From a virus, in the IMG/VR virus record IMGVR_UViG_3300013372_000190, positions 1 through 20,713 of that record: 20,713 bases of DNA. One strand, 5' to 3'. Positions within the stretch are counted from its first letter, which is position 1, and every line of letters begins with the position of its first letter. The position numbers and the translations under genes were made by a program. Of the stretch, positions 2-20,713 are shown piece after piece. The notes beneath the pieces are model-generated. The model did no database searches. It worked only from the letters and a program-made list of their open reading frames with translations, and was not told where the DNA came from.

Positions 2-292
2 CGGGGTAAAAGAGTTCGCGCTGAACCTATATCTGCTCTATATGAACAGGGTCGCGTACACCATGTTGGAGCCTTTCCAACTCTTGAGGACCAAATGGTT
101 ACTTGGACTCCTGATGTTCCTAAGTCACCTGACCGTCTTGACGCTTTAGTGTGGGCGCTAACAGAACTCAACGAAGGTTCAATTGCGTCAATAAGTTTGG
201 GTGCGCTCGCCGTATTCTGTTCCAACTGTAAGCGCCCGTCACCGCGAAACGCGATAATATGTCCTCATTGTGGAACTAGTTTGGGAGCATAA
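2..292 (+). CDS. terL: Terminase large subunit, C-terminal end (5' truncated by window)
   Basis: The reading frame is open from the first bases to the TAA at 290-292, so this is the tail of a longer gene. The visible part contains the family-typical end of the terminase nuclease domain: a YEQGRVHHVG stretch, then LEDQM, a tryptophan-proline turn and PDRLDALVWALTEL. In TerL proteins this is the last part of the RNase H-like nuclease domain that cuts concatemeric DNA during packaging. The final 30 residues add a zinc ribbon, CX2C-X10-CX2C (cysteines encoded at 218, 227, 260 and 269), which is not part of the core fold and may bind DNA or the portal. The next gene starts inside the stop codon (TAATG). 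An internal ATG at 95 is not the start, because the conserved motif extends upstream of it. Confidence 0.9.
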   Translation, partial: RGKRVRAEPISALYEQGRVHHVGAFPTLEDQMVTWTPDVPKSPDRLDALVWALTELNEGSIASISLGALAVFCSNCKRPSPRNAIICPHCGTSLGA

Positions 293-837
293 TGGCCGTT
301 GTCTATAACACCGAAATTGACCAAGGCGCGGATTGGTACATCAACTTCATTTACACACAACCGGCAACTATCACGAATATCGTGGGTAACGGGACTACTG
401 TTGCGTTTACCGCGACTAATGGATTTACAGCCGGGCAAAAAGTTTCTATCAACGGCGTACTTCCAAGTCAATATAACTTTCAAGATGTAACTATCGCGAG
501 CGCGAGCGCGTCTAATTTCACCGTGACAAATAGCGCAACAGGAACTTATATCTCCGGCGGTCTTGCTACTAGCCCCGCAAACTTGACCGGGTACACAGCG
601 GCTCTACAAGTGCGGTCATTACCGTCTAGCCCGACAACAGTTCTTGATTTAACAACTCAAAACGGCGGTATCACAATTACAGCCCTCGAAGGTAAAGTCG
701 CAGTTCACGCGACAGCCGTACAAACAGGAGCAATAGATGACGGCGTTTATGTATATGATTGTGAAATAACTGGGGGTGGAGTAACGACTCGTTTGGTACA
801 GGGCCAAGTGGTTGTATCCCCTGAGGTGACCCGCTAA
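292..837 (+). CDS. Phage structural protein with inserted beta module (unknown role)
   Basis: A 181-residue protein with no membrane segment or signal peptide. The first 25 residues (DQGADWYINF) and residues from about 98 on (LTGYTAALQVRS) read as one split beta domain. Between them, residues 26-92 form a Thr/Ser/Gly-rich insert with the pattern GFTAGQKVSINGV then YN then NFTVTNS. That pattern is a beta module that recurs in phage structural proteins and resembles FCCH-type repeats. The ATG overlaps the terL stop, and its own stop overlaps the next ATG at 837, so it is translationally coupled on both sides. Its position next to fibre-type genes suggests a virion surface or fibre-attachment part. 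This is inference; I do not recognise a specific family. Confidence 0.75.
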   Translation: MAVVYNTEIDQGADWYINFIYTQPATITNIVGNGTTVAFTATNGFTAGQKVSINGVLPSQYNFQDVTIASASASNFTVTNSATGTYISGGLATSPANLTGYTAALQVRSLPSSPTTVLDLTTQNGGITITALEGKVAVHATAVQTGAIDDGVYVYDCEITGGGVTTRLVQGQVVVSPEVTR

Positions 838-1118
838 TGGCTAATGACGCAATTATTGTCGTACCGAACATTCCAACTGTCACAATTCAGACACCGGGAC
901 CACAAGGCCCAAGTTCTGCCGCGCAGATTTTTTATACCCATGTTCAAGCCGTAGCCGCTTCAACATGGACTATCAACCATAATCTAGGCGGGCAACCCAC
1001 AGCGGTTGTGTTGGATAGTGCGGGAACTCAATGTGAAGGCACCTTTTCTTACCCTTCTATAAATCAAATGGTGATAACATTCTCAAGTGCGTTTACCGGT
1101 ACCGCGTACATAATTTAG
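837..1118 (+). CDS. Small fibre-type protein with HNLG beta domain
   Basis: A 93-residue protein. Residues 20-26 contain a short collagen-like patch (PGPQGP). The rest matches a small beta domain often found at the ends of phage tail fibres: WTINHNLGGQPTAVVLDSAG, then a tyrosine-centred strand, then VITFSSAFTGTAYII. The same domain closes the next gene (HNLG near 2464), so the two neighbours share a module. The start overlaps the previous stop (TAATG), and the TAG at 1116-1118 is followed at once by the ribosome binding site of the next gene. Likely a surface-exposed trimeric fibre part or a chaperone for one; the exact role is not visible. Confidence 0.75.
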   Translation: MANDAIIVVPNIPTVTIQTPGPQGPSSAAQIFYTHVQAVAASTWTINHNLGGQPTAVVLDSAGTQCEGTFSYPSINQMVITFSSAFTGTAYII

Positions 1119-1127
1119 GAGATTTTG

Positions 1128-2624
1128 ATGGCCCGTAAATTTCTAGTATCCATTGACCTCAATAAAAATGAACTTCAAAACGGTGTTATCCAAAATTTAG
1201 GCACCGCCCCTTCAAGCCCTGTTGCCGGTCAAATTTATTACGACACAGTTGATAACGAACTTTATTTCTATAACGGCACAACTTGGGAATCTACTCAAGC
1301 AAACGCACAAGTAACTTACGGAACATTCGCAAACCGTCCTGCCGCGGGAGAAGCCGGTCGTCTGTACTACGCAACAGACCAAGCGCTTCTATATTTTGAT
1401 GACGGTACAACATGGGCGCAGATTTCAGCGTTTGGAAGCGTCACAGCGCAAACAACTTACGGTGCTTCAAGTGGAAACGGCTCAAGCAATAGTTATGCTC
1501 GTACTGACCACACTCACGGAACTCCCTCACTAACAAATTCAACACCTACCGCTCTTGCTATCGGTGGTTCAGGAGCAGTTGGTACAGGAACAGCGCCGGC
1601 GCGTGAAGACCATGCTCACGCCATGCCTTCATTTGGCGGCGTAACAGCACAAACAACTTTCGGCGGTTCAAGCGCTAATGGAACTTCAACTTCTGTTGCT
1701 CGCGCAGACCATACTCACGGAACACCTACTCACGACAACGCGGCACATGCGTTGATTAACCTTTCAGCGCTCGCGGCTCCTACCGCAGATGTGTCAATGG
1801 GTAATTACAAACTTACAAGTCTTGCGACACCTGTTGCCTCAACAGACGCGGCGAACAAGCAATATGTAGATGATGTCGCACAAGGTCTAAATATCCACGC
1901 CGCTTCATACGCCGCAACAACAGCAAACCTCAACGCGACTTATGACAATGGAACTTCCGGAGTAGGCGCAACTCTTACAAATGCTGGAACACAAGCCGCA
2001 TTTAGTACAGACGGAGTTAGCCCAAGCCTCAACGCTCGTATTCTTGTCAAGAATCAAACAACAACAAGCCAAAACGGTATTTACACCCTCACGACAGTAG
2101 GTTCCGTTTCAACAAACTGGGTACTTACTCGCGCAACTGACTTTGACACAGCGGCAGAAATGGCTGGCGGAGATTTCACATTCGTAGATGCTGGCTCAAC
2201 ACTTGCCAATACTGGTTGGGTCATGGTTGATGAAGTTACAACAGTTGGCACAGACCCAATTACTTTTCAACAATTTAGTGGTGCTGGAACTTATACCGCG
2301 AGCAACGGTGTTCAACTTGTAGGTTCTAACTTCTCCGGCGTAGTAGTTTCCGGCGGCGGATTAAGTGTCGGTTCAAGCGGTTTTGATATTGACAGCGCAG
2401 TAGTTGTCAAGAAATACGCGGCTAGTGTCGGTGACGGAACTGCTACCTCATACACGGTGTCACATAACCTTGGAACTAAAGATGTGACCGTTGCTGTCTA
2501 CGATAACTCCGCTCCATACGCAGAAGTTATCTGCGATGTTCAGCACACTTCCACAACCGCGATTACTCTGTTATTCTCGGTCGCACCAACCTCAAACCAA
2601 TATCGGGTAGTCGTACACGGCTAA
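1128..2624 (+). CDS. Fibre-like structural protein with HxH repeats (head fibre or minor tail protein)
   Basis: A 498-residue modular fibre protein. ATG at 1128 is preferred over TTG at 1125 because GGAGA at 1118-1122 is correctly spaced for it. Modules in order: two short beta units of the form AG-x-YY-x-T...NGTTW (about residues 32-56 and 72-98); histidine repeats with DHTHG or DHAHA (about 105-215); a trimer-type linker ending DAANKQYVDD (near 245); a common phage fibre domain with NGIYTLT...WVLTRATDFDTA (about 300-385); and a C-terminal HNLG domain. HxH motifs in other phage fibres coordinate metal ions on the trimer axis. It sits between terminase and portal rather than with the distal tail genes, so a capsid fibre or decoration role is possible. 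Confidence 0.8.
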   Translation: MARKFLVSIDLNKNELQNGVIQNLGTAPSSPVAGQIYYDTVDNELYFYNGTTWESTQANAQVTYGTFANRPAAGEAGRLYYATDQALLYFDDGTTWAQISAFGSVTAQTTYGASSGNGSSNSYARTDHTHGTPSLTNSTPTALAIGGSGAVGTGTAPAREDHAHAMPSFGGVTAQTTFGGSSANGTSTSVARADHTHGTPTHDNAAHALINLSALAAPTADVSMGNYKLTSLATPVASTDAANKQYVDDVAQGLNIHAASYAATTANLNATYDNGTSGVGATLTNAGTQAAFSTDGVSPSLNARILVKNQTTTSQNGIYTLTTVGSVSTNWVLTRATDFDTAAEMAGGDFTFVDAGSTLANTGWVMVDEVTTVGTDPITFQQFSGAGTYTASNGVQLVGSNFSGVVVSGGGLSVGSSGFDIDSAVVVKKYAASVGDGTATSYTVSHNLGTKDVTVAVYDNSAPYAEVICDVQHTSTTAITLLFSVAPTSNQYRVVVHG

Positions 2625-2637
2625 TAAGGAGAAACAC

Positions 2638-4494
2638 ATGGGTCTTTTAGACCGTTTCGCCAAGAAAGTTGCTAGTGAACTAGAGAAGGCACCTCGTTTA
2701 CCGGCTGGTTCTGTCACCATGACGGAATCTGAAATGCGTCAAGCGGGCTTAGTTGCTCAACAGACATACGGCAATAGCAATCCGCTACCTCGCGCACCAT
2801 TTAGCGCGACCGTACCGTTTGGCCCGGGTATGCCTATCACACCGGGAGCAATCAACCCGGTTCGTGAGGACGGACGCCCTGACCCACGCCGTTATGAGTA
2901 TCAAGTTGCTCAAAATATAAATGTAACTGAAACACGGTTTATCCCATTCAAGACATTACGACAAAGCGCAGACCAAATTGACATTTTGCGCCGTTGTATT
3001 GAAGTGGTAAAGAGTAAGGCCCTTAGCCTTGAGTTTGATATTACCCTCGGGCAAGACGCGTCTGAAAAAATTATCGCTGAGTCCGGTGATAACCATATTC
3101 GCGCCATGGCTGAGGCTCGTAAACGCTTTACAAAAGATATTGACCGCCTTCGCACATTTTGGGAGAACCCTGACCGTTCAAATGGTTATACCTTCACGGA
3201 TTGGTTGAACATAGCGCTTGAGGAAATCCTCGTCATTGACGCTTGGGCAGTATGGCCACAGAAAACAGTAGGCGGCGACCTATACGGTCTACAAATTCTT
3301 GACGGTTCAACGATTAAGCCACTTCTTGATGACCGTGGTATGCGCCCGGTTCCGCCGAATGTTGCTTATCAACAGATACTTTACGGTTTCCCGCGTAGTG
3401 AGTTCACCGCTAATGATGATGACCCAAATGCTGACGGTGAGTTCACGGCAGATGACCTTCAATACATGGTGCGTAACCGTAGAACTATCTCGGTCTATGG
3501 ATTTAGCCCGGTTGAAAGAGCGCTACCTCTAGCAGACATTTACCTTCGCAGACAACAATGGATTCGCGCTGAGTACACAGACGGCGTAGTTCCTGAGTTG
3601 TTTTTTGAGTCTGATATTAACTTCGGTACAAATGCCCAACTAATTCGTGACTATGAAAATATCCTCAATGACGATTTATCCGGTATCACACAACAGCGTA
3701 AGCGCGCCCGTATCTTGCCGGCAGGATTAAAACCTTTCCAAACAGACGGTTACGGAGAAAAGTTCAAGGACACTCTTGACGATTTCCTAATTGCTTCTAT
3801 TTGTGGACACTTCGGCGTACAACCTACTGAAATCGGTTATAGCCCCAAGAGTGGTCTAGGTGGAGCAGGGTTTGAACAAGGTAAGGCGGCGAGCGCTCAG
3901 GCAATTGGTATTGAGCCACTTGTTGCGTGGATTAACAAAATGCTCACGAACATTTCTTACACATACCTCGGTATGCCTCGCGAATTAGAGTTCAAGTTGC
4001 TTACCTCTCGCCGTGAGGACAACGAAGCGAACGCTCGTAAATCACAGATTGAAGTTACTTCCGCCGGAAAGACAATCAACGAACGCCGTAGCGAATTAGG
4101 TTTACCTCTCCTAGATACACCTCAAGCGGATATGCCGATTCTTTTGGCTGGCTCTGAGGTGTTGCTATTCTCGCCGGACGGCATAATCAACGCTAAGGAA
4201 GTTACCTCTGCCGCTACTCTTGACCAAGAAGGTAACCCTCAAGGTGATGAAATGCCTATCGCTACCAACGGACAAGGCGCTCCTGAGGAACCGTTGGCAG
4301 ATGACGATGAAGTTATAGACGCAGAAGTACAAGCAGAAGTCAAAGCCTTTATGAAGTGGGCGAATAAGGGGAAGCGCAATCGCCAATTTGAGTTTCATAA
4401 GGTAGATATGGTCGTTGCCGAAGCCCTGAACCGTTGCGCTTACGAGGGCGACCTTGAAACGGCTAGGTCGTTAGCAAAAGCCTATCTAACATGA
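2638..4494 (+). CDS. Portal protein
   Basis: At 618 residues this has portal size and position. The portal is a dodecameric ring at one capsid vertex; DNA enters through it and the tail docks there. Supporting stretches include LRQSADQIDILRRCIEVVKSKA (about residues 102-123), a GLQILDGSTIKPLLDDRG strand-turn (about 217-234), YGFSPVERALPLADIYLRRQ (about 288-307) and KPFQTDGYGEKFKDTLDDF (about 365-385), all typical of actinophage-type portals. The C-terminal third is acidic and low in complexity (rich in E, D and Q), then ends in a helical stretch (WANKGKRNRQFEFHKVDMV) shared with many portal C-termini. An AAGGAGAA site lies just before ATG 2638. The last codons overlap the MuF gene (ATGA at 4491), which implies coupled translation. 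Confidence 0.9.
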   Translation: MGLLDRFAKKVASELEKAPRLPAGSVTMTESEMRQAGLVAQQTYGNSNPLPRAPFSATVPFGPGMPITPGAINPVREDGRPDPRRYEYQVAQNINVTETRFIPFKTLRQSADQIDILRRCIEVVKSKALSLEFDITLGQDASEKIIAESGDNHIRAMAEARKRFTKDIDRLRTFWENPDRSNGYTFTDWLNIALEEILVIDAWAVWPQKTVGGDLYGLQILDGSTIKPLLDDRGMRPVPPNVAYQQILYGFPRSEFTANDDDPNADGEFTADDLQYMVRNRRTISVYGFSPVERALPLADIYLRRQQWIRAEYTDGVVPELFFESDINFGTNAQLIRDYENILNDDLSGITQQRKRARILPAGLKPFQTDGYGEKFKDTLDDFLIASICGHFGVQPTEIGYSPKSGLGGAGFEQGKAASAQAIGIEPLVAWINKMLTNISYTYLGMPRELEFKLLTSRREDNEANARKSQIEVTSAGKTINERRSELGLPLLDTPQADMPILLAGSEVLLFSPDGIINAKEVTSAATLDQEGNPQGDEMPIATNGQGAPEEPLADDDEVIDAEVQAEVKAFMKWANKGKRNRQFEFHKVDMVVAEALNRCAYEGDLETARSLAKAYLT

Positions 4495-6032
4495 AGTGGC
4501 GCGCCCATGAATTAGACGGGCGCATATCCGCCAAAAATGCCCTCAAGATTAGGGCCGCTCTACGCAGTTCAACCAAGTGGGAGCGTGTCTTTGAGGCATA
4601 TAAGCGCACACAACCCGCGGTATCAAAGAACCCGGCTCAAGATAGGGCTAGGGCTAGGGCTTGGGCCATGCTCTCGGTTCCGTTTGATAATGACGCACTT
4701 ATAGCCGCACTTCGTAGAACATGGGCAGACGGTTTTGCTCTTGGAATTATCTCGGCAGATGACGCTATACGCCAAGCGAGAGAACTCAAGAAAGCCGATG
4801 ACCCTGATTACATAGATTGGGCAAACTGGAAACCCGGTGACGCGGCGGCGGCACTACTGGTCAAACCTACAAGGGCATTTCAACGGCTCTTAGAGGCCCA
4901 AGGAGCCACGATTAGGGGTATTGACCGTACAGGATACGACCGTCTAGGAACAGCGCTCGCAGACGCTATTGCGCTTGGATTATCGGGTAGGAGAGCCGCT
5001 AAACTAATTCAAGATAGCGTTAGTGACCCGGCGAGGGCGCTCACAATTGCGATTACTGAAACCAATAGAGCAATTAGCCGGGCCACGATTGAGCGATACC
5101 AACAATTCGGCCTTGAACAAATGGAATGGGTGACTTCTGACCCTTGTGACAAATGCGTACTCAATGAAGGCAAGGTTGTAAATGTAGGGGCCACATTTCC
5201 AAGCGGTGACACTCAACCACCGGTTCACCCGAACTGCCGTTGCGCTTTATTGCCGGTTGTTCCTGACTTTAATGCTCCGGCTAACGAAATAGATAACATT
5301 TTGTTACCTCAAGAACCAACAATTGCCGGTATTTCAGAGCGTTTATTGTTGGATACTTCTGAGGAAGCAACTCAATTATTAAATAATTCTCCCCGTGGAA
5401 TAGGTGAAGAAAGACTTACAGCGGCTTACAAAATGCGCCCTGAATATAATGCGTTTCCAGATGTTATTGACCCTGATGAGTTTGATAGATTGCGTGACGC
5501 TAAAGAAGGTGTTGCGGTTTATCGTGGAATTGTAGACGGTAAAGGTCAATCGGCTGATTATTTTATTGAGCAATACAAGCGTGGAACTCATTACGCTGGA
5601 TACGGCATGTATGGGAATGGAACTTATACAAGTACTAATTTTGGCAGGGCCTTAGAATATGCGAAATATGATGAGAATAAAGTCATGGAAATCTTAATTC
5701 CAAAAGACGCTAAATTCATAACTTATGCTGAAATGCGTGATAAGACTAAAAACGCTATCAACGAAATTGACGCATTTATTAAAAGTGAGCGTTCAAGAAT
5801 GTTTGATGTAGCGAGCAGGATAGCAAGGGCTACTAATTTAGATATAACAGATGTTCCTGAATGGCAACAATGGGAAAAGCGACAAAGTAATTTATTCGCC
5901 GCTCGTACCCTATTGAGCGATGAAGGTACCACCGCTGTACTTATGGGATATGACGGAGTTTCCCTACGAGTAAGCGATAATGAGGTTTATTACATTATTC
6001 TCAATCGCGGAAAGGTCAAAATAAAACGATGA
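4491..6032 (+). CDS. MuF-like minor head protein fused to an ADP-ribosyltransferase-like domain
   Basis: A 513-residue two-part protein. Residues 1-265 are a MuF-type minor head protein: an alpha-helical start, then TETNRAISRATIERY (about 183-202), MEWVTSDPCDKC with cysteines at about 219 and 222, and the hallmark HPNCRCALLPV (about 246-256). MuF proteins attach to the portal and are packaged in the head. Residues 280-513 are a second domain with the layout of ADP-ribosyltransferases: VYRG with Arg345, GNGTYTSTNF with Thr380-Ser381-Thr382, and DNEVYYIILNRG with Glu498. This resembles the R / STS / xxE order of toxin-type enzymes. MuF proteins are known to carry polymorphic toxin domains at the C-terminus. 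The second half is visibly more AT-rich, which hints at separate acquisition. Activity is inferred, not shown. Confidence 0.85.
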   Translation: MKWRAHELDGRISAKNALKIRAALRSSTKWERVFEAYKRTQPAVSKNPAQDRARARAWAMLSVPFDNDALIAALRRTWADGFALGIISADDAIRQARELKKADDPDYIDWANWKPGDAAAALLVKPTRAFQRLLEAQGATIRGIDRTGYDRLGTALADAIALGLSGRRAAKLIQDSVSDPARALTIAITETNRAISRATIERYQQFGLEQMEWVTSDPCDKCVLNEGKVVNVGATFPSGDTQPPVHPNCRCALLPVVPDFNAPANEIDNILLPQEPTIAGISERLLLDTSEEATQLLNNSPRGIGEERLTAAYKMRPEYNAFPDVIDPDEFDRLRDAKEGVAVYRGIVDGKGQSADYFIEQYKRGTHYAGYGMYGNGTYTSTNFGRALEYAKYDENKVMEILIPKDAKFITYAEMRDKTKNAINEIDAFIKSERSRMFDVASRIARATNLDITDVPEWQQWEKRQSNLFAARTLLSDEGTTAVLMGYDGVSLRVSDNEVYYIILNRGKVKIKR

Positions 6033-6226: not shown

Positions 6227-7971
6227 TGGCCAATACGCTTGATATGACCACCGCCTTCTTTAACATTATTAAGGCTGATAAGAACGCAGACGGTACGCTC
6301 ATGGTGTATGGCAAGGCAACAGATGACTCCCTAGATATAGACCAACAAATTTGTGACCCTGTTTGGCTAGACCGGGCCATGCCTGATTGGTTTAAGTCCG
6401 GCGGAAACATTCGTGAACAACACTCCAATATCGCGGCTGGCGTTGCTAAAGAATACGAAAAGAAAAATGACGGCCACTATATTCGCGCTCTCGTTGTAGA
6501 CCCTGTAAGCGTCAAGAAGGTTGATACCGGCGTACTCAAGGGTTTCAGTATTGGTATTAAATCCCCACGCGTTGTCCGTGACCAAAAGGCGGCAAACGGC
6601 AGAATCATTGACGGCCAAATTGTTGAGGTATCACTTGTAGACCGTCCTGCTAACCCAAATTGTCAATTGGTTTTAGCCAAGTCCGCTGAAGGCGAAGCCG
6701 GGTGGTGGAAGGTTGAACAACTCATTGAGAAAGAAGACAAGAAGCCAAATTATGAGGGTATGCTCCGTGGCGGCGGTGGCTCTGAACCGGCTGATAAAGA
6801 ACTCTATAACCGGGTGAAGCGTGAGGCTAAAGAAAAGTTTGATGTCTACCCTTCTGCTGTCGCTAATGCTTGGGTCGTCCGTGAATACAAAAAGCGCGGG
6901 GGTACCTACAAGAAAAAGACCGAGAAATCGGCCGATAGATTACAATTATCGGAAGTTACAGAAAGGGGAGCCATGGACTTACTTGCCCAAGACATTATTG
7001 ACATGTCTAAGTCGTATTCCGTTGGCGACCTCTTGAAGTTTGATAAGAAAACTTATGACAACGCTCGTCAAGCGCTGGCACAACTTATCGCAATTGAAGC
7101 CGAAGAAATGGGCGAGGGCCATAACGAAGAAGCCTCGCTCTCTCACCTATTAGCCGCCGTTCATCACCTATTCGCGTGGTACGCGGGTGAGGAAGCAGAA
7201 GGAGAAGTAATGGAAGAAAACATTGAACTCGCCGCACATTCAGACGAGATGAAACCTAAAAAGGGTGAATCAAAATCTGATTTCATGAAGCGTTGTAAAG
7301 AAGCCGGCATGGAAGATGACGCCGCTGAAAAGGTTTACGACAAATATATGAAGTCGGTTGAAAGTGATAATGATGAAAAAGAAGAAGTAGAAAAAACCGC
7401 TGAGGTATCTAAGTGCCTTGAATGTGGTTGTGCTACTCCCGGCGCTGACCATGGCGCAACAACTACAAATGATTTCGCGAATGTTGCCATGCCTTCACAT
7501 GTCACGACCGCTGAAATGTACGCACCCGGCGAAACTCCTAAGTCCGCTGAAGGTGATGTAGTTGAAACTCCTGCCGAGGAAAAAATTGAAGAAGAAGTTA
7601 AGGAACCGGCAGACGCAGAAGTTTCTGAGGAAGCACCCGCTTCCGCAGATGTAGAAGCAATAGTAGAAAAGGCTGTCAAGAGTGCTACCGAGTCCATTAG
7701 GGCTGAGGTCGTTTCGTTACTTTCCGCAAAAGAGGCGGCAGAAACGAAAGCGGCGTCCTTGGAATCTGAGTTAGCAGTTGCTAAGTCTTTGGCTGTTGCC
7801 GGCGGTCCAAAAAGAACTGCCAAACCGATAGATACAAAGGTTTCTGACAATTTGACAAAAGCCGCTGTCTATCGCGCAAAAGCAAACGCAACCACAGACC
7901 CACTTTTGATTAAAGGCTACAAGGCTCTTGCGGAAAAATTCGCAAACGCCGCTGAAGCCGAATCAAAGTAA
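6226..7971 (+). CDS. Prohead protease fused to scaffold-like region
   Basis: 581 residues, far longer than a typical 180-250 residue prohead protease. Residues 1-150 match the phage prohead serine protease fold: NIREQHS (candidate catalytic His66), GVLKGFSIGI (candidate Ser108) and EVSLVDRPANP (about 134-144). This enzyme cleaves scaffold and capsid delta regions inside the prohead. Residues 190-230 carry YNRVKREAKEKFDVYPSAVANAW and REYKKRGGTY, a motif seen in other phage structural proteins. Residues 345-375 carry KKGESKSDFMKRCKEAGM, another recurrent phage head motif. A CLECGC cluster lies near residue 400. The C-terminal third is acidic and coiled-coil prone (rich in E, A and K), as expected of a scaffold that the protease would later remove. 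Catalytic assignment is by motif only. Confidence 0.8.
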   Translation: MANTLDMTTAFFNIIKADKNADGTLMVYGKATDDSLDIDQQICDPVWLDRAMPDWFKSGGNIREQHSNIAAGVAKEYEKKNDGHYIRALVVDPVSVKKVDTGVLKGFSIGIKSPRVVRDQKAANGRIIDGQIVEVSLVDRPANPNCQLVLAKSAEGEAGWWKVEQLIEKEDKKPNYEGMLRGGGGSEPADKELYNRVKREAKEKFDVYPSAVANAWVVREYKKRGGTYKKKTEKSADRLQLSEVTERGAMDLLAQDIIDMSKSYSVGDLLKFDKKTYDNARQALAQLIAIEAEEMGEGHNEEASLSHLLAAVHHLFAWYAGEEAEGEVMEENIELAAHSDEMKPKKGESKSDFMKRCKEAGMEDDAAEKVYDKYMKSVESDNDEKEEVEKTAEVSKCLECGCATPGADHGATTTNDFANVAMPSHVTTAEMYAPGETPKSAEGDVVETPAEEKIEEEVKEPADAEVSEEAPASADVEAIVEKAVKSATESIRAEVVSLLSAKEAAETKAASLESELAVAKSLAVAGGPKRTAKPIDTKVSDNLTKAAVYRAKANATTDPLLIKGYKALAEKFANAAEAESK

Positions 7972-7990
7972 CTCCACGAAAGGAAACCAA

Positions 7991-9658
7991 ATGGCTCTCC
8001 AAGCCCCTAAGGCGGCAGACCTATTTGACGGCGCTTCTCCAGTAGAAGCCGCTGAACGCATGGAAGAATTCCAAGGCGTACTCAATAAGGCTCTCGCTAA
8101 TGGCTCAACGACACCGGGTCAAGCACCAACCGACCCTGTCGCCGCTATGGAAGCACTCGCAATCAGTAAGTCACTCTCAGCAGAGGCTTCAGCGAGTCTT
8201 CAGAATGCTCTCGCCGCACAACGCGGCGCTATGGGCGACCTAAACAAGGAAATCACTCTAACAACCCCGCTCTCAACTTCGTTTGCGGCGTTTGACCTAG
8301 AGGCTCCTGCTAAGTTGCTCACACCTCGTCCAACTCCACTCCGTAACCGTATCCCTCGTAAGAAGGGTGTTGGTACAAGCCACCGTGTCAAGAGAATTCT
8401 TGGCTACACCGGTACTGGTACTGGCGGAGTCGGCAATCTATGGCCGGGAATTACAGAATCAACGACAAACACCTTCGGTGGCCTCACTCTTGAGCGCGGT
8501 CCACAGATTTCGTATGCCGCTGATGATTTAGTATTGCCATACAACTCATACTCACTAAGCGATAGCGTTTCATTTGACGCCAACTTCTCAGGCCTTGGAT
8601 ACCAAGACCTTCGCCAGTTGTCTTCAACTTCAACACTTTACGCGACAATGCTTATGGAAGAACGCATGATGTTGATGGCTCGCGGTACCGCTTCAGGTTA
8701 CTCAGGCGCACTATCCGCTCCAACTTTCGCACTTACCTCTCCAGTAGCAACCGCTTCACAGACAGCACTCGCCGCGGCGACTTACTATGTAAATGTCACC
8801 GCTGACGCAGGTATCTCCGGAAACGGTTTTGGTGAGTCAATCCTCGGCACAGAGGCTTCAACCGCTGTTGCTTCCGGTGATGTTCTAGCAATCACCGTTT
8901 CAACCGCTGTTACCGGCGCACTTGGATACAACATTTATGTTGGAACTACTACCGGCGCCGCAAACCTCAAGTATCAGGGAACTCTCAAGGGAACAGGTAC
9001 TTTCTACATTCAAGGTGCTGGCACTTCCGGTCTAACTGGAAACAATGCCGCTTACTCAACTTCAGGAGCCGCCGCTTCACGCGCGTCCGCTGATACTTCA
9101 GCATACGCAACTGGATATGACGGAATTCTCCCAACAGTTCTTGGTCCAAACAGCGGTGCTATCAACGCAATCAACAGCGCGTTCAGCACAAGCAATCCGG
9201 GCGTGGAATTCCAGAGTGTATTCGCAACCATGTATCAGGCTGTAAAGGCTGACCCTGATGTTGTATTGCTTAATGGAAATGACCGTAAGCAACTCTCTGA
9301 CGCAATCAAGAACGGCTCAACTGCTAACTACCGCCTAGTCATCAACGACCCGGGCGCTGGCGGAACCACCTACGGTTCAATCGTCACCGGACTTCAGAAC
9401 GAAGTAACCGGAAAGGCAGTAGACCTCATGGTTCACCCTTGGCTTAACCAAGGTGTTGCTCCTGTTCTATCGTTCACCCTTCCAATTCCTGATACTGAGG
9501 TATCAGATGTTTGGGCGAACTTCATGGTTCAGGATTACATGGGAATTCAATGGCCGGTCGTACAGTTCACCTACGACTTCTCCACATATTTCCGTGGAAC
9601 CTTCTTCTGTACCGCTCCTGCTTGGAACGGCGCAGTTTCAGGAATCGTAGCCGCGTAG
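7991..9658 (+). CDS. Major capsid protein (HK97-like fold) with inserted Ig/FN3-like domain
   Basis: 555 residues from ATG 7991, chosen because AAAGGAAA lies just upstream and an earlier in-frame ATG at 7928 sits inside the protease gene. It directly follows the protease/scaffold gene, the usual place for the capsid gene. Residues 100-235 look like the N-arm, E-loop and spine helix start (RNRIPRKKGVGTSHRVKRI; AADDLVLPYNSYSLSDSVSFDA). Residues 240-365 form a separate Ala/Thr/Gly-rich beta domain with YYVNVTADAG and LGYNIYVGTTTGA, which reads as a fibronectin-III-like insertion. The HK97-type frame then resumes with DPDVVLLNGNDRKQL and the C-terminal LPIPDTEVSDVWANF. Strong codon bias and a hairpin right after the gene suit a highly expressed product. 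Confidence 0.85.
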   Translation: MALQAPKAADLFDGASPVEAAERMEEFQGVLNKALANGSTTPGQAPTDPVAAMEALAISKSLSAEASASLQNALAAQRGAMGDLNKEITLTTPLSTSFAAFDLEAPAKLLTPRPTPLRNRIPRKKGVGTSHRVKRILGYTGTGTGGVGNLWPGITESTTNTFGGLTLERGPQISYAADDLVLPYNSYSLSDSVSFDANFSGLGYQDLRQLSSTSTLYATMLMEERMMLMARGTASGYSGALSAPTFALTSPVATASQTALAAATYYVNVTADAGISGNGFGESILGTEASTAVASGDVLAITVSTAVTGALGYNIYVGTTTGAANLKYQGTLKGTGTFYIQGAGTSGLTGNNAAYSTSGAAASRASADTSAYATGYDGILPTVLGPNSGAINAINSAFSTSNPGVEFQSVFATMYQAVKADPDVVLLNGNDRKQLSDAIKNGSTANYRLVINDPGAGGTTYGSIVTGLQNEVTGKAVDLMVHPWLNQGVAPVLSFTLPIPDTEVSDVWANFMVQDYMGIQWPVVQFTYDFSTYFRGTFFCTAPAWNGAVSGIVAA

Positions 9659-16600: not shown

Positions 16601-16721
16601 CCCAACCGCGCTCGCGGCTAAAGAAAGTGGAGCAATAGGAGCGGCTTCAATAGCGGCTAGAACGGTGACAGTTGCTCCACCTAAATTGACGGCTCAACAA
16701 ATCGCAATGAGGGCTAGATAA
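13668..16721 (+). CDS. Tape measure protein
   Basis: 1,017 residues, the largest gene. It sets tail length and is ejected ahead of DNA at infection. The N-terminus has the usual helical opening (ASLKKGLADAQNTLKGLDNSV), then a globular region with YRQMTNSLAQALNGNFASL. Two hydrophobic segments lie at about 284-304 (FTIIVGGAYTAFKLYKGILV) and 349-368 (LGLIITALALIGAGFVYAW), which could insert in the host membrane. A glycine-rich hinge (about 455-470) leads to a long charged coiled coil (about 473-628), a central domain with MAAGPEVGNALADSILN, a second coiled coil (about 750-905) with a repeated KGLAEAQ unit, and a beta-rich end. No peptidase or lytic domain was evident. Confidence 0.92.
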   Translation: MASTLPPILVEIQADVASLKKGLADAQNTLKGLDNSVEQTGSSMTKFMDRIKQVGATLGIAFAGTQVLQFFRESITAANEASAAQERLATLLRNTNGGTEAQIQALYQQAEALEAVGVVSKDNIIVAQSQLATFDLTASTINTLTPAILDYVTAEKGAAASADDYRQMTNSLAQALNGNFASLTRVGFVLDETTKKQISSGTESERAAAIVEVLNSTYKGFNETLRDNNPLQAAINDLDKLKGDIGEALLPLIDQLSRFISDDLIPGLRAMAKWFKENYGALKVFTIIVGGAYTAFKLYKGILVTTKVATQVYTVATTLMKGQQLASIASTNGLAASMLKLNAAMRANPLGLIITALALIGAGFVYAWKRSETFREVVIKVAQVVMNGFAKLSEIAGKFFSMIGKIPGMGWAKSIGNGLDSISDKVKIASKNLMDLKSGFKGMGNVSMTGDGAAGDPFAGGGKGGKGGGGLGEKEKKKLADYQKKVKDIYRDMNDVIKEANEKAEAALETRNERMAEAHERYNERVAELNERYAEQMEAAQERFNERKADLEERYRDQIAEAERRAQDEKAKATKRYGEEIIKINREFDKKKVELEQSLQEKLKDLRANAAEKSVELTRKAAEKQAGIVQQSIDRLRNAFASKTGFSLTEAFGKGASGKDILGKLTEQLRVSKNLAEKASFLADNGFSQPFIEQVMAAGPEVGNALADSILNATPETIEELKKTFNEMETVSNTGLDTLAKSMNTGANLATKELRDAYNQVSIDLKQSLNDVDRELTENMAAQQAAFDAAMTEAKKVRDEKLTEALVDMREAIAESERELQEARVKAKEALDKGLAEAQVELEKSRRKAQEELNKGLAEAQATLQKALIDAQKAYEKAIDDINKATDKKLEELKRKLAETAALMAALSAAQAAAAVASAPVYTPIVPVTLGGSRTDSAASVGNSTTVNVTGVNLTNPQQTASSVINAIKFGNVVVPTAPTALAAKESGAIGAASIAARTVTVAPPKLTAQQIAMRAR

Positions 16722-17581
16722 TGACAGTATTAACAGTTCAATATTCGTTTTCTTTCAACGGTCAAACTTTTGGCGGCGAAGGTTCGCCTTATCAAATTTT
16801 GAGCGTGGACGGTCTTGAAGGTTTACCCGGTATCCGTAACCAAGATGACAACCGTGGTTTCGCAGACGGCATGTTTTCCGGTCAAGACTTTTATGGCGGC
16901 AGAACCGTGAGTATCATTTTTAATACTTTTGGCACAAATACCGCAACGGCTCAAGAGAATTTCAACGCTATTCAACGGAAACTATTACCACAAACTACCG
17001 GCACGACACCTCTGTATTTTTATCTGCCGCCTAATGAAACTCAATTCATAAATGCCCGTGTTCGTGGACTTAGGACTACCGTAGACCCTAATTACACCTA
17101 CGGATATATCATTTCTCAAGTAGAGTTTTTTTGCCCTGACCCGGCTTATTACAATCAAAATACTCAAACCGCGAGCCTTGATTACACCCCACCCGGCGGT
17201 CGTACCTATAACCGTGTCTATAACCTCGTTTATGGCGGCGGTTCAGTAGCAATCACCACAACCGTATCAAACACCGGTTGGGCAACCACTTATCCAGTTA
17301 TTCAAATCAACGGACCTATTACTAACCCTGTTTTGGGCAATCAAACTCAAAACGCGGCTCTATATTTCACCGGAACATATACCAACACGGATATATTGAG
17401 GGTGGATTTGTATAATAAACTCATTACCTTGAACGGTAGTCCAGCCCGAAACTTGTTAATATCGGGTGAGTGGTTCTCGGCTGAACCCGGGAACAACTTG
17501 TTCTACTTGACGGGTGACGCTGGTTCTACAACCGTAGGAGTGACCGGCGGTACGATAACATGGAACTCAGCGTTCGTTTAG
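16721..17581 (+). CDS. Distal tail protein (Dit-like)
   Basis: 286 residues directly after the tape measure, the standard position for Dit, the hexameric ring that joins the tail tube to the adsorption apparatus. The N-terminal half fits the Dit fold: FSFNGQTFGGEGSPYQILSVDGL, DFYGGRTVSIIFNTFG, and FNAIQRKLLPQTTGTTPLYFYLP, ending in GYIISQVEFFCPDPAYYN. From about residue 155 comes a second beta domain with NTGWATTYPVIQINGPITNP and the strand ISGEWFSAEPGNNLFYLTG, like the galectin-type C-terminal domain of longer Dit proteins. The ATG overlaps the tape measure stop (TAATG). Confidence 0.85.
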   Translation: MTVLTVQYSFSFNGQTFGGEGSPYQILSVDGLEGLPGIRNQDDNRGFADGMFSGQDFYGGRTVSIIFNTFGTNTATAQENFNAIQRKLLPQTTGTTPLYFYLPPNETQFINARVRGLRTTVDPNYTYGYIISQVEFFCPDPAYYNQNTQTASLDYTPPGGRTYNRVYNLVYGGGSVAITTTVSNTGWATTYPVIQINGPITNPVLGNQTQNAALYFTGTYTNTDILRVDLYNKLITLNGSPARNLLISGEWFSAEPGNNLFYLTGDAGSTTVGVTGGTITWNSAFV

Positions 17582-17589
17582 GAGCATAA

Positions 17590-18669
17590 ATGACAGTACG
17601 CACACCCCCTTCGTGGTTACAAAACGGCTCTCACCCCGCTGAAAATGACCGTCTAACGACTCAGGCTCTTTGGGCCACAACTGGAATTATTAACTCAAGT
17701 TCTCTTGCGGTCACGGCTAACTCACCCGTTGGTATGTCCGTTCTTGTTGCGAGTGGTTGGGCCGCAATCGTTGGAACTACTCAAGCGAACATGGGAACCT
17801 ATGTTGCTTACAATGACGCTCAAGTAACTTTAACAATCGCAACAGCCGACCCAACTAACCCTCGTATTGACCGTATTGTAATGACCGTCAATGACGCTTA
17901 TTACACCGGGTCTACAAACAATGTTGTTCTCCAAGTAATCGCAGGAACTCCGGCTGGTTCTCCGGTTGCTCCTGCTACACCCGCGAATTCAATTTCATTA
18001 GCAACTATCGCAGTAGGCGCGGCAGTTCTTTCAATTAACTCAGGAAACATTACTGACACTCGTGTATTGGTAACAACCAATATCCCTGAGTCCGGTGACA
18101 TTTCAAGCGTTACAGCCGGAAACGGTTTAAGTGGTGGTGGTTCATCAGGAGCCGTTACTCTTTCAATCAACACCGCTATTACAGCAGACCTTTCAACAGC
18201 GCAAACGCTGACAAATAAGACTTTAACCGCGCCAATTATTTCAACGATTTCTAATACAGGAACTTTGACGCTACCCACTTCAACGGATACCTTGGTTGGG
18301 CGCGATACAACAGATACTTTAACCAACAAGACTCTTACTTCTCCGTTGATTAACTTGGGTATAAATGCTCAAACTGGAACGACCTACACAACGGTTCTAG
18401 CGGATAATGGCAAACTCGTGACGCTTACAAATGGTTCGGCTATCGCCGTGACTATTCCATTGAACTCAAGCGTGGCTTATCCCGTGGGCGCTCAAATCAA
18501 CATGGTCCAATTAGGGGCCGGTCAAGTCACCGTTTCAGGAGCCGGCGGTGTTACCGTAGTATCAACCGGCGCAACAGCCGCAACTCCAAAGACACGCGCT
18601 CAATACAGCACCTTGACGGCTGTACAGACTTCAACAGATAATTGGCTTGTCATGGGTGATATTTCATGA
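17590..18669 (+). CDS. Minor tail / baseplate-fibre protein
   Basis: 359 residues with a GGAG site 5 bases upstream of its ATG. Residues 1-170 match a minor tail domain frequent in actinophage-type genomes: HPAENDRLTTQALWATTG, MSVLVASGWAAIVGTTQAN, ATADPTNPRIDRIVMTVNDA and a closing SGNITDTRVLV. Residues 175-250 are linker modules with GLSGGGSSGAVTLS and two TLTNKTLT repeats. Residues 265-359 form a fibre end domain (LADNGKLVTLTNGSA, then GAQINMVQLGAGQVTVSGAGG and a terminal NWLVMGDIS), present again in the gene at 18914. Likely an adsorption-apparatus protein that carries or forms a side fibre. Its last codons overlap the next start (ATGA). Confidence 0.8.
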   Translation: MTVRTPPSWLQNGSHPAENDRLTTQALWATTGIINSSSLAVTANSPVGMSVLVASGWAAIVGTTQANMGTYVAYNDAQVTLTIATADPTNPRIDRIVMTVNDAYYTGSTNNVVLQVIAGTPAGSPVAPATPANSISLATIAVGAAVLSINSGNITDTRVLVTTNIPESGDISSVTAGNGLSGGGSSGAVTLSINTAITADLSTAQTLTNKTLTAPIISTISNTGTLTLPTSTDTLVGRDTTDTLTNKTLTSPLINLGINAQTGTTYTTVLADNGKLVTLTNGSAIAVTIPLNSSVAYPVGAQINMVQLGAGQVTVSGAGGVTVVSTGATAATPKTRAQYSTLTAVQTSTDNWLVMGDIS

Positions 18670-18917
18670 GTCGTTTAGCCTTAACCCCTACAAATGTCCC
18701 GGTTTCTGCTTCAGATATATCTACGCCAACACTCCGCGCCGGGGACTTGTACTACAACACAACAGAAGGTCTTAAAGTGTATTCAGGAACAGCATGGGTA
18801 GCCGTTGCTCCTGCTATTACTGAATTAGACGGGGGCGTATTTGATAGTATTGCTCCGTACAACGGTGGCGACCCAACTACTACGGCGACACAAACTTTTG
18901 ACGGGGGTACTCCATGA
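18666..18917 (+). CDS. Small fibre-module protein
   Basis: 83 residues, overlapping both neighbours by ATGA (18666 and 18914). The body is one short beta unit, LRAGDLYYNTTEGLKVYSGTAWV, the same kind of module found twice near the start of the 1128 gene. The C-terminus is acidic and Gly/Thr-rich (ELDGGVFDSIAPYNGGDPTTT), a pattern seen at the ends of small fibre proteins. It may be a connector or trimer cap for the fibre encoded on either side. Full coupling supports a real gene despite its size. Confidence 0.7.
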   Translation: MSRLALTPTNVPVSASDISTPTLRAGDLYYNTTEGLKVYSGTAWVAVAPAITELDGGVFDSIAPYNGGDPTTTATQTFDGGTP

Positions 18918-19549
18918 GCGTAGTGACACAAATCCAAATTCGGCGCGGAACTGCCGCACAATGGACTTCTGCTAATCCAACCCTTGCCGCTGGCGAATGG
19001 GGTTATGAAACTGATACCGGTAAAGTCAAAATTGGCAACGGTTCAACAGCGTGGAATTCTTTAGGCTATACAGGAGCCGGAGATATTGAAGGAGTCACAG
19101 CCTCAACCGGATTAAGCGGGGGCGGCACAAGTGGCACCGTTTCACTTTCTATTGACACTTCCGTTACGGCAGATTTAACAACCGCTCAAACGCTTACAAA
19201 TAAAACATTAACAGCACCGGTCATAAATCTTGCTCTAAATGCGCAAACAGGAACTACCTATACATTCGCACTCACAGACAACGGAAAATTAGTTACCGCT
19301 TCCAATGCTTCAGCGCAAACTTATTCAATACCAACTAACGCGACAACAGCCTTCCCAACAGGAACTCAAATCAACATTATTCAAATTGGCGCCGGTCAAG
19401 TAACAATTCAAGCGGCTTCAAGTGGTACCACAACAGTATCAAGTACAGGAGCAACCGCAACCGCTCCAAAACTTCGCGCTCAATATTCTTCTGCGACTTT
19501 GATTAAAGCCTCAACAGATTTATGGTATGTAGTGGGAGATATTTCCTAA
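18914..19549 (+). CDS. Tail fibre protein with Mtd N-terminal-like domain
   Basis: 211 residues. The first 50 (IQIRRGTAAQWTSANPTLAAGEWGYETDTGKVKIGNG, in brief RRGT...W...NP.LAAGE.GYETDTG..KIGNG) match the N-terminal domain of phage tropism-determinant and many fibre proteins. Then follow the GLSGGGTSGTVSLS linker, TLTNKTLTAPVIN, and a C-terminal domain (LTDNGKLVTASNASA, GTQINIIQIGAGQVTI, LWYVVGDIS) clearly paralogous to that of the 17590 gene. It is probably a receptor-proximal fibre. No C-type lectin variable region and no reverse transcriptase were seen here. The stop overlaps the next ATG. Confidence 0.8.
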   Translation: MSVVTQIQIRRGTAAQWTSANPTLAAGEWGYETDTGKVKIGNGSTAWNSLGYTGAGDIEGVTASTGLSGGGTSGTVSLSIDTSVTADLTTAQTLTNKTLTAPVINLALNAQTGTTYTFALTDNGKLVTASNASAQTYSIPTNATTAFPTGTQINIIQIGAGQVTIQAASSGTTTVSSTGATATAPKLRAQYSSATLIKASTDLWYVVGDIS

Positions 19550-20713
19550 TGCCTATTATTGGAACTATTGACTCAGCCAAAACAGGTCGCCTTGGTCTTG
19601 CTGTTGAAATTATGCTTCTTGGTGGAGGCGGTGGGGGTGCGGCTGATAGAGGTGCTGGCGGCGGTGCTGGCGGTATTTTTAATTCTTCATCAGTTACGGC
19701 TAGTGGAAATGTAACTGTTACTGTCGGTGCTGGTGGCGCTGGCGGTGCTGGTGGAAGCAACAATCCCGGAATAAATGGAACAAACACAGTTTTTGGAACT
19801 TCTACTGTTGGGCTTGGCGGTGGAGGCGGCGCTGGCGGTTCTGACTCAAGTTCAAAATCAGGCGGTTGTGGTGGTGGAGGTTCAGGCGCCAACGGTGGCG
19901 GATTTGCTGGTGGTGCTTCTACACAATCATCAACGGGTGGAACTGGATATGGATTTGCTGGTGGAACTGGTGGAGATACAGGAGCCGCTGGCGGCGGCGG
20001 AACTGGTGGAGTAGGTTCAAATTCCAGCGGCATGAGTGGTGGAAATGGCGGCACAGGAACAAACGCTTTTTCAACTTGGGCTACTGCTACTTCAACAGGT
20101 GTTTCAGGTCGTTATGGCGGCGGAGGTGGCGGCGCACCTTCACGCGATTCAGGTGGACCGGGAAGTAACGGCGCTGGTGGAGCAGGTGGCGGTGGAAATA
20201 GCGCGTCAGGTTCCGTGAGTGGACAAAGTGGTAATCCGGGAACCGATAATACTGGTGGCGGCGGTGGAGGTGCTTCAAATAATCCCCGTTCAGGAAGCGG
20301 CGGTAATGGAGGTTCAGGTTTAGCGATTGTTCGTTATCTTGGTTCTCAACAAGCGTCAGGTGGAACAATCGTTTCATCAGGCGGATACATTTACCACACA
20401 TTTACTTCATCAGGAACTTTTGCGGTTTGGTCAGGAAGTCCAAAAGCAACGGGTGGAAGTATCAACTATTCAGACGGTAACTGGATACATACATTTAATT
20501 CATCAGGAACATTCACTCCTACATCTTCAATATCACTTGCTGATTTCTTAGTCGTTGCTGGTGGTGGCGGAGGTGGTGGCGGATATTCAAGCAACGCTAA
20601 AGGTGGCGGTGGTGGTGCTGGTGGTTTGCGTACATCAGCGAGCATTTCAGGTGGCGGAGCATTACCTCAATCTCAAGTTTCTTTTACTAACGCAGTTGCG
20701 TACACAGTTACAA
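19549..20713 (+). CDS. Glycine-rich tail adhesin (3' truncated by window)
   Basis: The ATG overlaps the previous stop (TAATG), and the frame stays open to the window edge, so the gene continues beyond 20713. At least 388 residues. After a short start (MPIIGTIDSAKTGRLGLAVE) the protein is dominated by runs of glycine with S, A, T and N spacers (LGGGGGG, AGGAGGAGG, GGGGGGA). In T-even type adhesins such runs pack as polyglycine helices that display receptor-binding loops. From about residue 255 come units with IVRYLGS, GGYIYHTFTSSGTF and, repeated, GNWIHTFNSSGTF, then LVVAGGGGGGGG. These repeat units are frequent in phage fibre proteins. The opposite-strand open frames here are by-products of the glycine codons. 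Confidence 0.82.
   Translation, partial: MPIIGTIDSAKTGRLGLAVEIMLLGGGGGGAADRGAGGGAGGIFNSSSVTASGNVTVTVGAGGAGGAGGSNNPGINGTNTVFGTSTVGLGGGGGAGGSDSSSKSGGCGGGGSGANGGGFAGGASTQSSTGGTGYGFAGGTGGDTGAAGGGGTGGVGSNSSGMSGGNGGTGTNAFSTWATATSTGVSGRYGGGGGGAPSRDSGGPGSNGAGGAGGGGNSASGSVSGQSGNPGTDNTGGGGGGASNNPRSGSGGNGGSGLAIVRYLGSQQASGGTIVSSGGYIYHTFTSSGTFAVWSGSPKATGGSINYSDGNWIHTFNSSGTFTPTSSISLADFLVVAGGGGGGGGYSSNAKGGGGGAGGLRTSASISGGGALPQSQVSFTNAVAYTVT

Follow-up and report, generated by a model that had tools for sequence, protein, structure and literature searches.

The window analysed here, the whole of a 20.7 kb IMG/VR fragment (IMGVR_UViG_3300013372_000190), comes from an uncultured freshwater phage, presumably a siphophage given that tape measure and Dit genes are present and no sheath gene is in view. 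Its first gene consists of the last 96 codons of TerL. The genes then run in the order O1, O2, O3, portal, MuF-type protein, protease and probable major capsid protein, and continue through connector and tail genes to the tape measure, Dit, F1, F2, F3 and a glycine-rich ORF (Table 1). The presence of O1-O2-O3 between TerL and portal, put forward in a sequence-only reading of the window, is confirmed, with the cassette coordinates correct to the base. The second fibre site that this reading placed at 17590-20713 is also real and holds F1, F2, F3 (Mtd_N, 2e-18) and the glycine-rich ORF. Inspection by eye finds TAATG overlaps at TerL/O1 and O1/O2 and Shine-Dalgarno-like leaders ahead of O3 and portal; thus, the cassette genes are read as part of one operon. 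The start of O3 is most likely ATG 1128 rather than TTG 1125.

Two further genes of the window call for comment on their own account. The probable major capsid protein (7928-9658) is named from its gene place, and the sole family that it matches, phrog_13692, has no assigned function. Its listed start, TTG 7928, overlaps the protease gene, and an ATG about 60 bases 3' is the likelier start. The C-terminal half of the MuF-type protein (4491-6032), residues ~320-512, is absent or poorly matched in many relatives. By eye, this half resembles an ADP-ribosyltransferase-like domain; Pfam at E 0.01 matches Phage_Mu_F and nothing further in this protein.

Table 1. Coordinates of the cassette, its neighbours and the tail-fibre site in the window.
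Feature	Position	Strand	Matches and remarks
TerL C-terminus, zinc-ribbon-like tail; gene begins outside the window	2..292	+	PF17289 9.9e-6; phrog_979 2e-11
O1, predicted Ig-like ring (collar) protein, LtfC/BppU-N type, FCCH-like insert	292..837	+	phrog_1084 9e-22; phrog_3304 3e-10; AF2 pLDDT 92
O2, short connector or fibre stub	837..1118	+	phrog_30556 1.7e-20
O3, fibre	1128..2624	+	phrog_2647 1.8e-48; LME-1 orf22 2e-33; 9nx3 5e-20
Portal protein	2638..4494	+	phrog_2662 4e-57; PF04860 2.4e-10
Dit (distal tail protein), directly 5' of the tail-fibre site	16721..17581	+	phrog_33 8e-19; PF22768 2e-9
F1, tail-site minor tail protein, C-terminal tip domain	17590..18669	+	phrog_3398 6e-21; tip HMM 1.2e-42
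F2, small knob protein	18666..18917	+	tail site in the window; TerL-portal cassette in relatives
F3, adhesin-type, Mtd_N and C-terminal tip domain	18914..19549	+	PF18454 1.8e-18

O1 gives an AlphaFold2 model of high confidence (pLDDT 92) whose best match in VIA is a 311-aa baseplate chain of Douge (Z 11.7 over 98 aa). This chain is the BppU of the Douge paper, identified by its length. The DT57C baseplate (Z 11.5 over 116 aa) and the T5 tail tip (Z 11.4 over 116 aa) follow, these ring-protein matches extend across the entire O1 model, and no capsid protein is among the O1 structure matches listed by VIA. Among viral structure models, the matches of O1 include minor tail proteins and a protein with a BppU N-terminal domain. 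The sequence shows kinship to phrog_1084 (9e-22) and to phrog_3304, annotated as L-shaped tail fibre assembly (3.3e-10); profile searches also return a structural protein of Pseudomonas phage KPP25 (8e-15) and, weakly, a DT57C chain (0.005). Relatives of O1 in Acidovorax phage AP1 and HTVC008M stand among tail or baseplate genes. The beta domain inserted at residues ~22-96 has a structural counterpart in UBA1-type E1 enzymes (Z ~10.5), and a weak Pfam match names it FCCH. In an alignment of 28 clade sequences and two proteins from cultured phages, 14 of the clade sequences lack this insert through a clean indel.

O2 is 93 residues long: its conserved start (IIV..P..VTV..PGPQG) is followed by an HNLG domain, and the collagen patch amounts to two triplets only (GPQGPS). 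The motifs P-G-P-Q-G and HNL are invariant in 18 aligned sequences. HNLG occurs once in O2 (residue 48) and once in O3 (residue 446). A profile search with O2 against the PDB returned no match up to E 0.5. In Phrappuccino (gp69-gp70) and Yvonnetastic (gp55-gp56) an O2-like gene lies directly 5' of an O3-like gene. In other members of the clade the gene after O1 is of a different kind: in L025, L180 and L059 it encodes 1171, 886 and 1082 residues, respectively, rich in collagen repeats (PF01391 was tested on the L025 and L180 proteins), and long open frames that end in the tip domain also occur in L075 and L175. The tip domain of the window's F1 and F3 also terminates the collagen fibres of variant cassettes, as detected with an HMM seeded by five sequences (window F1, window F3 and three variant collagen fibres); L180 is an exception in which the tip domain sits on a separate short collagen gene. 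The variants with giant collagens carry three opposite-strand genes before the portal (L180:7702-9956, L025:7705-9914 and L059:7710-9922, all on the minus strand). In L180, where the families were tested, these encode an FkbM methyltransferase, a TPR protein and a third protein (332-346 aa across variants) without a family match; they might add sugars to the fibre.

O3 has 498 residues, arranged as a conserved N-terminus, two beta knobs, three HxH repeats (motifs at residues 128, 162 and 195), a variable centre and a conserved HNLG C-terminus. Across 19 sequences the mean majority frequency is 0.93 for the N-terminal 25 residues, which are nearly constant, 0.86 for the HNLG domain, 0.71-0.72 for the knobs, 0.64-0.85 for the HxH repeats and 0.62 for the central domain. 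The fibre modules first noticed in the bare sequence (beta insert, collagen patch, HxH and HNLG) go beyond chance: the HxH and HNLG motifs persist in aligned relatives (18 for O2, 19 for O3), and only the number of HxH repeats varies. Residues 224-416 match LME-1 orf22 (9efk, a portal-tail complex, in 18 chains; 2e-33), which is probably a fibre, judging from its copy number and kin. Residues 278-498 match 9nx3, named 'Capsid decoration protein' (5e-20), and phrog_2647 (1.8e-48) is labelled head decoration. The chain in 9nx3 is the C-terminal 242 residues of a 1151-aa gp232-type virion protein of Bxz1-like mycobacteriophages, whose genes adjoin glycosyltransferase, minor tail and lysis genes; a literature search found no paper on 9nx3, on Bxz1 decoration or on the structure code 9EFK. 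In Phrappuccino and Sauce the O3 relatives have their place 5' of the tail sheath gene, and in Sauce also 3' of the capsid gene. The head decoration label shared by phrog_2647 and 9nx3 spans proteins whose gene contexts are tail, head or unclear. The domains that O3 has in common with these proteins serve in a tail complex and perhaps elsewhere, and do not settle the location of O3. The structure model of O3 is poor (pLDDT 59), Foldseek with this model gave no match at E <= 0.001, and its VIA matches cover mainly residues 420-498, so the reading of O3 rests on sequence.

A DNA search against cultured phages gave only three short matches to the window. Portal relatives among cultured phages are distant, the best of 13 records reaching 30% identity; gene order was therefore assessed on IMG/VR contigs, gathered in three scans with two portal queries (one a cassette-free portal) and one O3 query. 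For the portal tree, identical portals were removed, as were loci whose match covered fewer than ~450 portal residues, which left 135 rows, with L111 absent. The TerL-portal interval is visible in 95 of these rows and its state is unknown in the other 40. It holds O1-O2-O3 in 65 visible intervals (including the window), O1-O2-O3 with F2-F3 in 13 and nothing in 11, while only O1 was recognised in five and only O2-O3 in one; these frequencies describe the sample, since one scan was selected on O3 and one on a cassette-free portal. When the count is restricted to contigs from the portal queries with the interval visible, an O1-headed cassette is present in 54 of 65 (42 with O1-O2-O3, 7 with F2-F3 in addition and 5 with O1 only). 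The order TerL-O1-portal is thus the norm in the clade, a finding that the sequence-only reading had named beforehand as one that would speak against it. The remaining 11 contigs contain nothing in the interval and manage without the cassette, which therefore has no essential role. In cassette-free contigs the distance from the TerL match to the portal is ~47 bases, and presence and absence on the portal tree amount to four changes. Most contigs keep the order O1-O2-O3, with the predicted ring gene adjoining the fibre genes. Among the 19 long contigs, 14 encode WhiB, including the closest long relative of the window, G001 (portal 95%), which points to actinobacterial hosts.

Sequence divergence is concentrated in the cassette. 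Compared with L094, nucleotide identity is 95-96% in TerL, 69-87% between positions ~300 and 2550, and for the most part 95-100% in the portal (low points 89-91%); at the protein level O1-O3 are 80-86% identical, TerL 97% and portal 99%. Similar edges of divergence appear against L111 and G001. Against G001, O1-O3 are 81-88% identical, F1-F3 71-82% and seven other genes 88-98%, with MuF compared over its first 273 residues only. Going by these identities, the cassette and the tail-fibre site both change at a pace typical of adsorption genes.

The two sites also share genes. In the window, F2-F3 follow Dit-F1, and of 20 records (19 contigs and the window) 13 have the pair at the tail site, four have it in the cassette and none has it at both. 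The cassette copies lie between O2 and O3 in G009 and G025 and after O3 in G013 and G030, and none of these four contigs has F2-F3 at its visible tail site, which in G030 is seen only for 627 bases past F1. In G029 the pair is in the cassette and the tail site is truncated; neither place holds it in G024 or G027. The tip domain of F1 is present in 13/13 records with F2-F3 at the tail site; the other seven have a short, truncated or altered F1 and yielded no tip domain. A Fisher test on the address, run without G029 (because of its truncated tail site) and G024 (which lacks the cassette and has F1 at the end of its contig) and with G027 taken as neither, gives p 0.0016, a value that is only indicative of exclusivity because the counts are few, kinship is ignored and a single-copy pair necessarily stands at one place. 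Close relatives differ in address: G026 has the pair at the tail and L157 and L074 have it in the cassette, with portals ~0.007-0.017 changes per column apart. In L111, F2 lies in the cassette and is 93% identical to that of the window, and the portal is 98% identical over 291 residues. The tail sites of L157, L074 and L111 lie beyond their contigs. In a tree of F2 and the F3 N-terminus (29 rows), 13 tail copies and 12 copies before O3 are intermixed, with eight changes of address, two of them forced by starred branches; the four copies after O3 form one clade. These patterns show that an adsorption gene pair can switch its genomic address while the phages are elsewhere nearly identical. Downstream of the fibre site in G024, a gene encodes a 375-aa protein (L200:879-2006) that is present in 17/19 long contigs and is probably the tail hub, by its place and by eye; the window ends upstream of this gene.

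The cassette is very probably an adsorption set: the block diverges sharply between conserved neighbours, as adsorption modules do. Where its products sit in the virion is a narrower matter, and a displaced side-fibre module with the O1 ring at the tail tip is favoured here with modest confidence. O1 would form an LtfC/BppU-N-type Ig-like ring that encircles the tail, most likely level with Dit at the tip. The N-terminal strands of O2 would plug into this ring, and O2 would carry a short collagen-like stalk and the HNLG domain. O3 is envisaged as a trimeric fibre whose HxH repeats would form metal-binding shaft turns and whose variable central domain would contact the host surface. The F2-F3 adhesin pair would serve the same apparatus from genes either in the cassette or behind Dit-F1. 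The sequence-only reading had left a choice between capsid fibres or a decoration appendage and a displaced adsorption module. The latter is favoured by the tail-tip collar/BppU fold of O1 and by the exchange of adhesin genes and the tip domain between cassette and tail site; the former comes out weak, with one PDB name and one PHROG label on its side. Against a side fibre stands the conservation of O3, which is highest at both ends, unlike the usual anchored fibre with a variable tip. Against placement at the tail tip stand the occurrence of the O1 fold in neck proteins and the match of the C-terminal half of O3 to a chain named for capsid decoration.

The neck proteins concerned are those of P74-26 (Z 9.9, 82 aa) and Sf14 (Z 9.1) and a connector chain of Bas63 (Z 8.8), and O1 also has a weak match to phrog_5774, head-tail joining (0.0014). 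With the cassette adjoining the portal gene, O1 could form a whisker- or collar-type ring at the head-tail joint and O2-O3 neck fibres, the gene standing by the portal gene as the product by the portal. Such a neck appendage is rather unlikely: O1 scores higher, over more residues, against tail-tip rings, its relatives in AP1 and HTVC008M have tail or baseplate genes as neighbours, and F2-F3 occupy now the cassette, now the Dit-F1 site. An arrangement in which these phages have two attachment apparatuses, Dit-F1 fibres at the tail tip and a second, ring-borne set from the cassette at the neck or head vertex, with F2-F3 shuttled and their address deciding the ring that displays them, is likewise rather unlikely. 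That O3 trimers decorate the capsid, with O2 as a second decoration protein, and help weak cell attachment appears improbable. The names of 9nx3 and phrog_2647 and the gene contexts in Phrappuccino and Sauce would fit this arrangement; conversely, 9nx3 is the end of a large virion protein encoded next to minor tail and lysis genes, O3 domains recur in the tail-complex fibre of LME-1, and the listed O1 matches, which still leave a capsid protein match possible, include none. It is most improbable that the interval is a recombination hot spot storing fibre alleles, not all of which enter the virion. Its content does vary (none, O1-O2-O3, this set plus F2-F3, or O1 and a giant collagen), but conservation is strong in O1, in O2 and at either end of O3, and the genes overlap TerL and one another in an operon-like manner.

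For annotators, a displaced adsorption module means that the terminase-portal interval deserves a search for host-recognition genes in phages that infect abundant freshwater Actinobacteria; fibre genes at this place are otherwise liable to receive packaging or head gene labels. The phrog_2647 label, head decoration, may be wrong for some members. The site of the cassette fibres and any role of theirs in host range become testable. Variable fibre genes in such actinophages are already known. Planktophila phages E7 and F5 are freshwater actinophages of 39 kb with WhiB, in which tail fibre and collagen-like genes make up a hypervariable island, tied by the authors to host recognition (PMC10202952). 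The island resembles the cassette in its variable fibre and collagen-like genes, and the text of that paper gives no position relative to TerL or portal. A literature search, mostly by title, found no description of the TerL-portal address, the ring-fibre make-up or the two-site exchange of F2-F3, which does not prove their absence from the literature.

Among known proteins, LME-1 orf22 is like O3 over residues 224-416, with the rest of its 658 aa unaligned and its gene in a presumably different genomic setting. The Bxz1-type gp232 (9nx3) and phrog_2647 share the C-terminal 220 residues including the HNLG-type domain; gp232 differs from O3 in genome place and protein size. In the BppU ring proteins of mycobacteriophage Douge and TP901-1, the Ig-like N-terminal ring domain has the same fold as O1, and in Douge these domains ring the distal tail protein (PMC13033339). 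O1 differs from Douge BppU in having no C-terminal carbohydrate-binding part, and the appendage would come from the separate genes O2 and O3. The LtfC-LtfA pair of T5-like phages is comparable in that O1 shares the fold and PHROG of LtfC and adjoins a fibre gene. In DT57C, twelve LtfC ring the tail tip and anchor the N-termini of the side fibres by strand donation (PMC10713586). The cassette differs in its place between TerL and portal, whereas the LtfC-LtfA genes stand beside tail-tip genes, and in the FCCH-like insert of O1 in part of the clade; the O1 ring is predicted, and the strand-like fibre N-terminus could insert into it.
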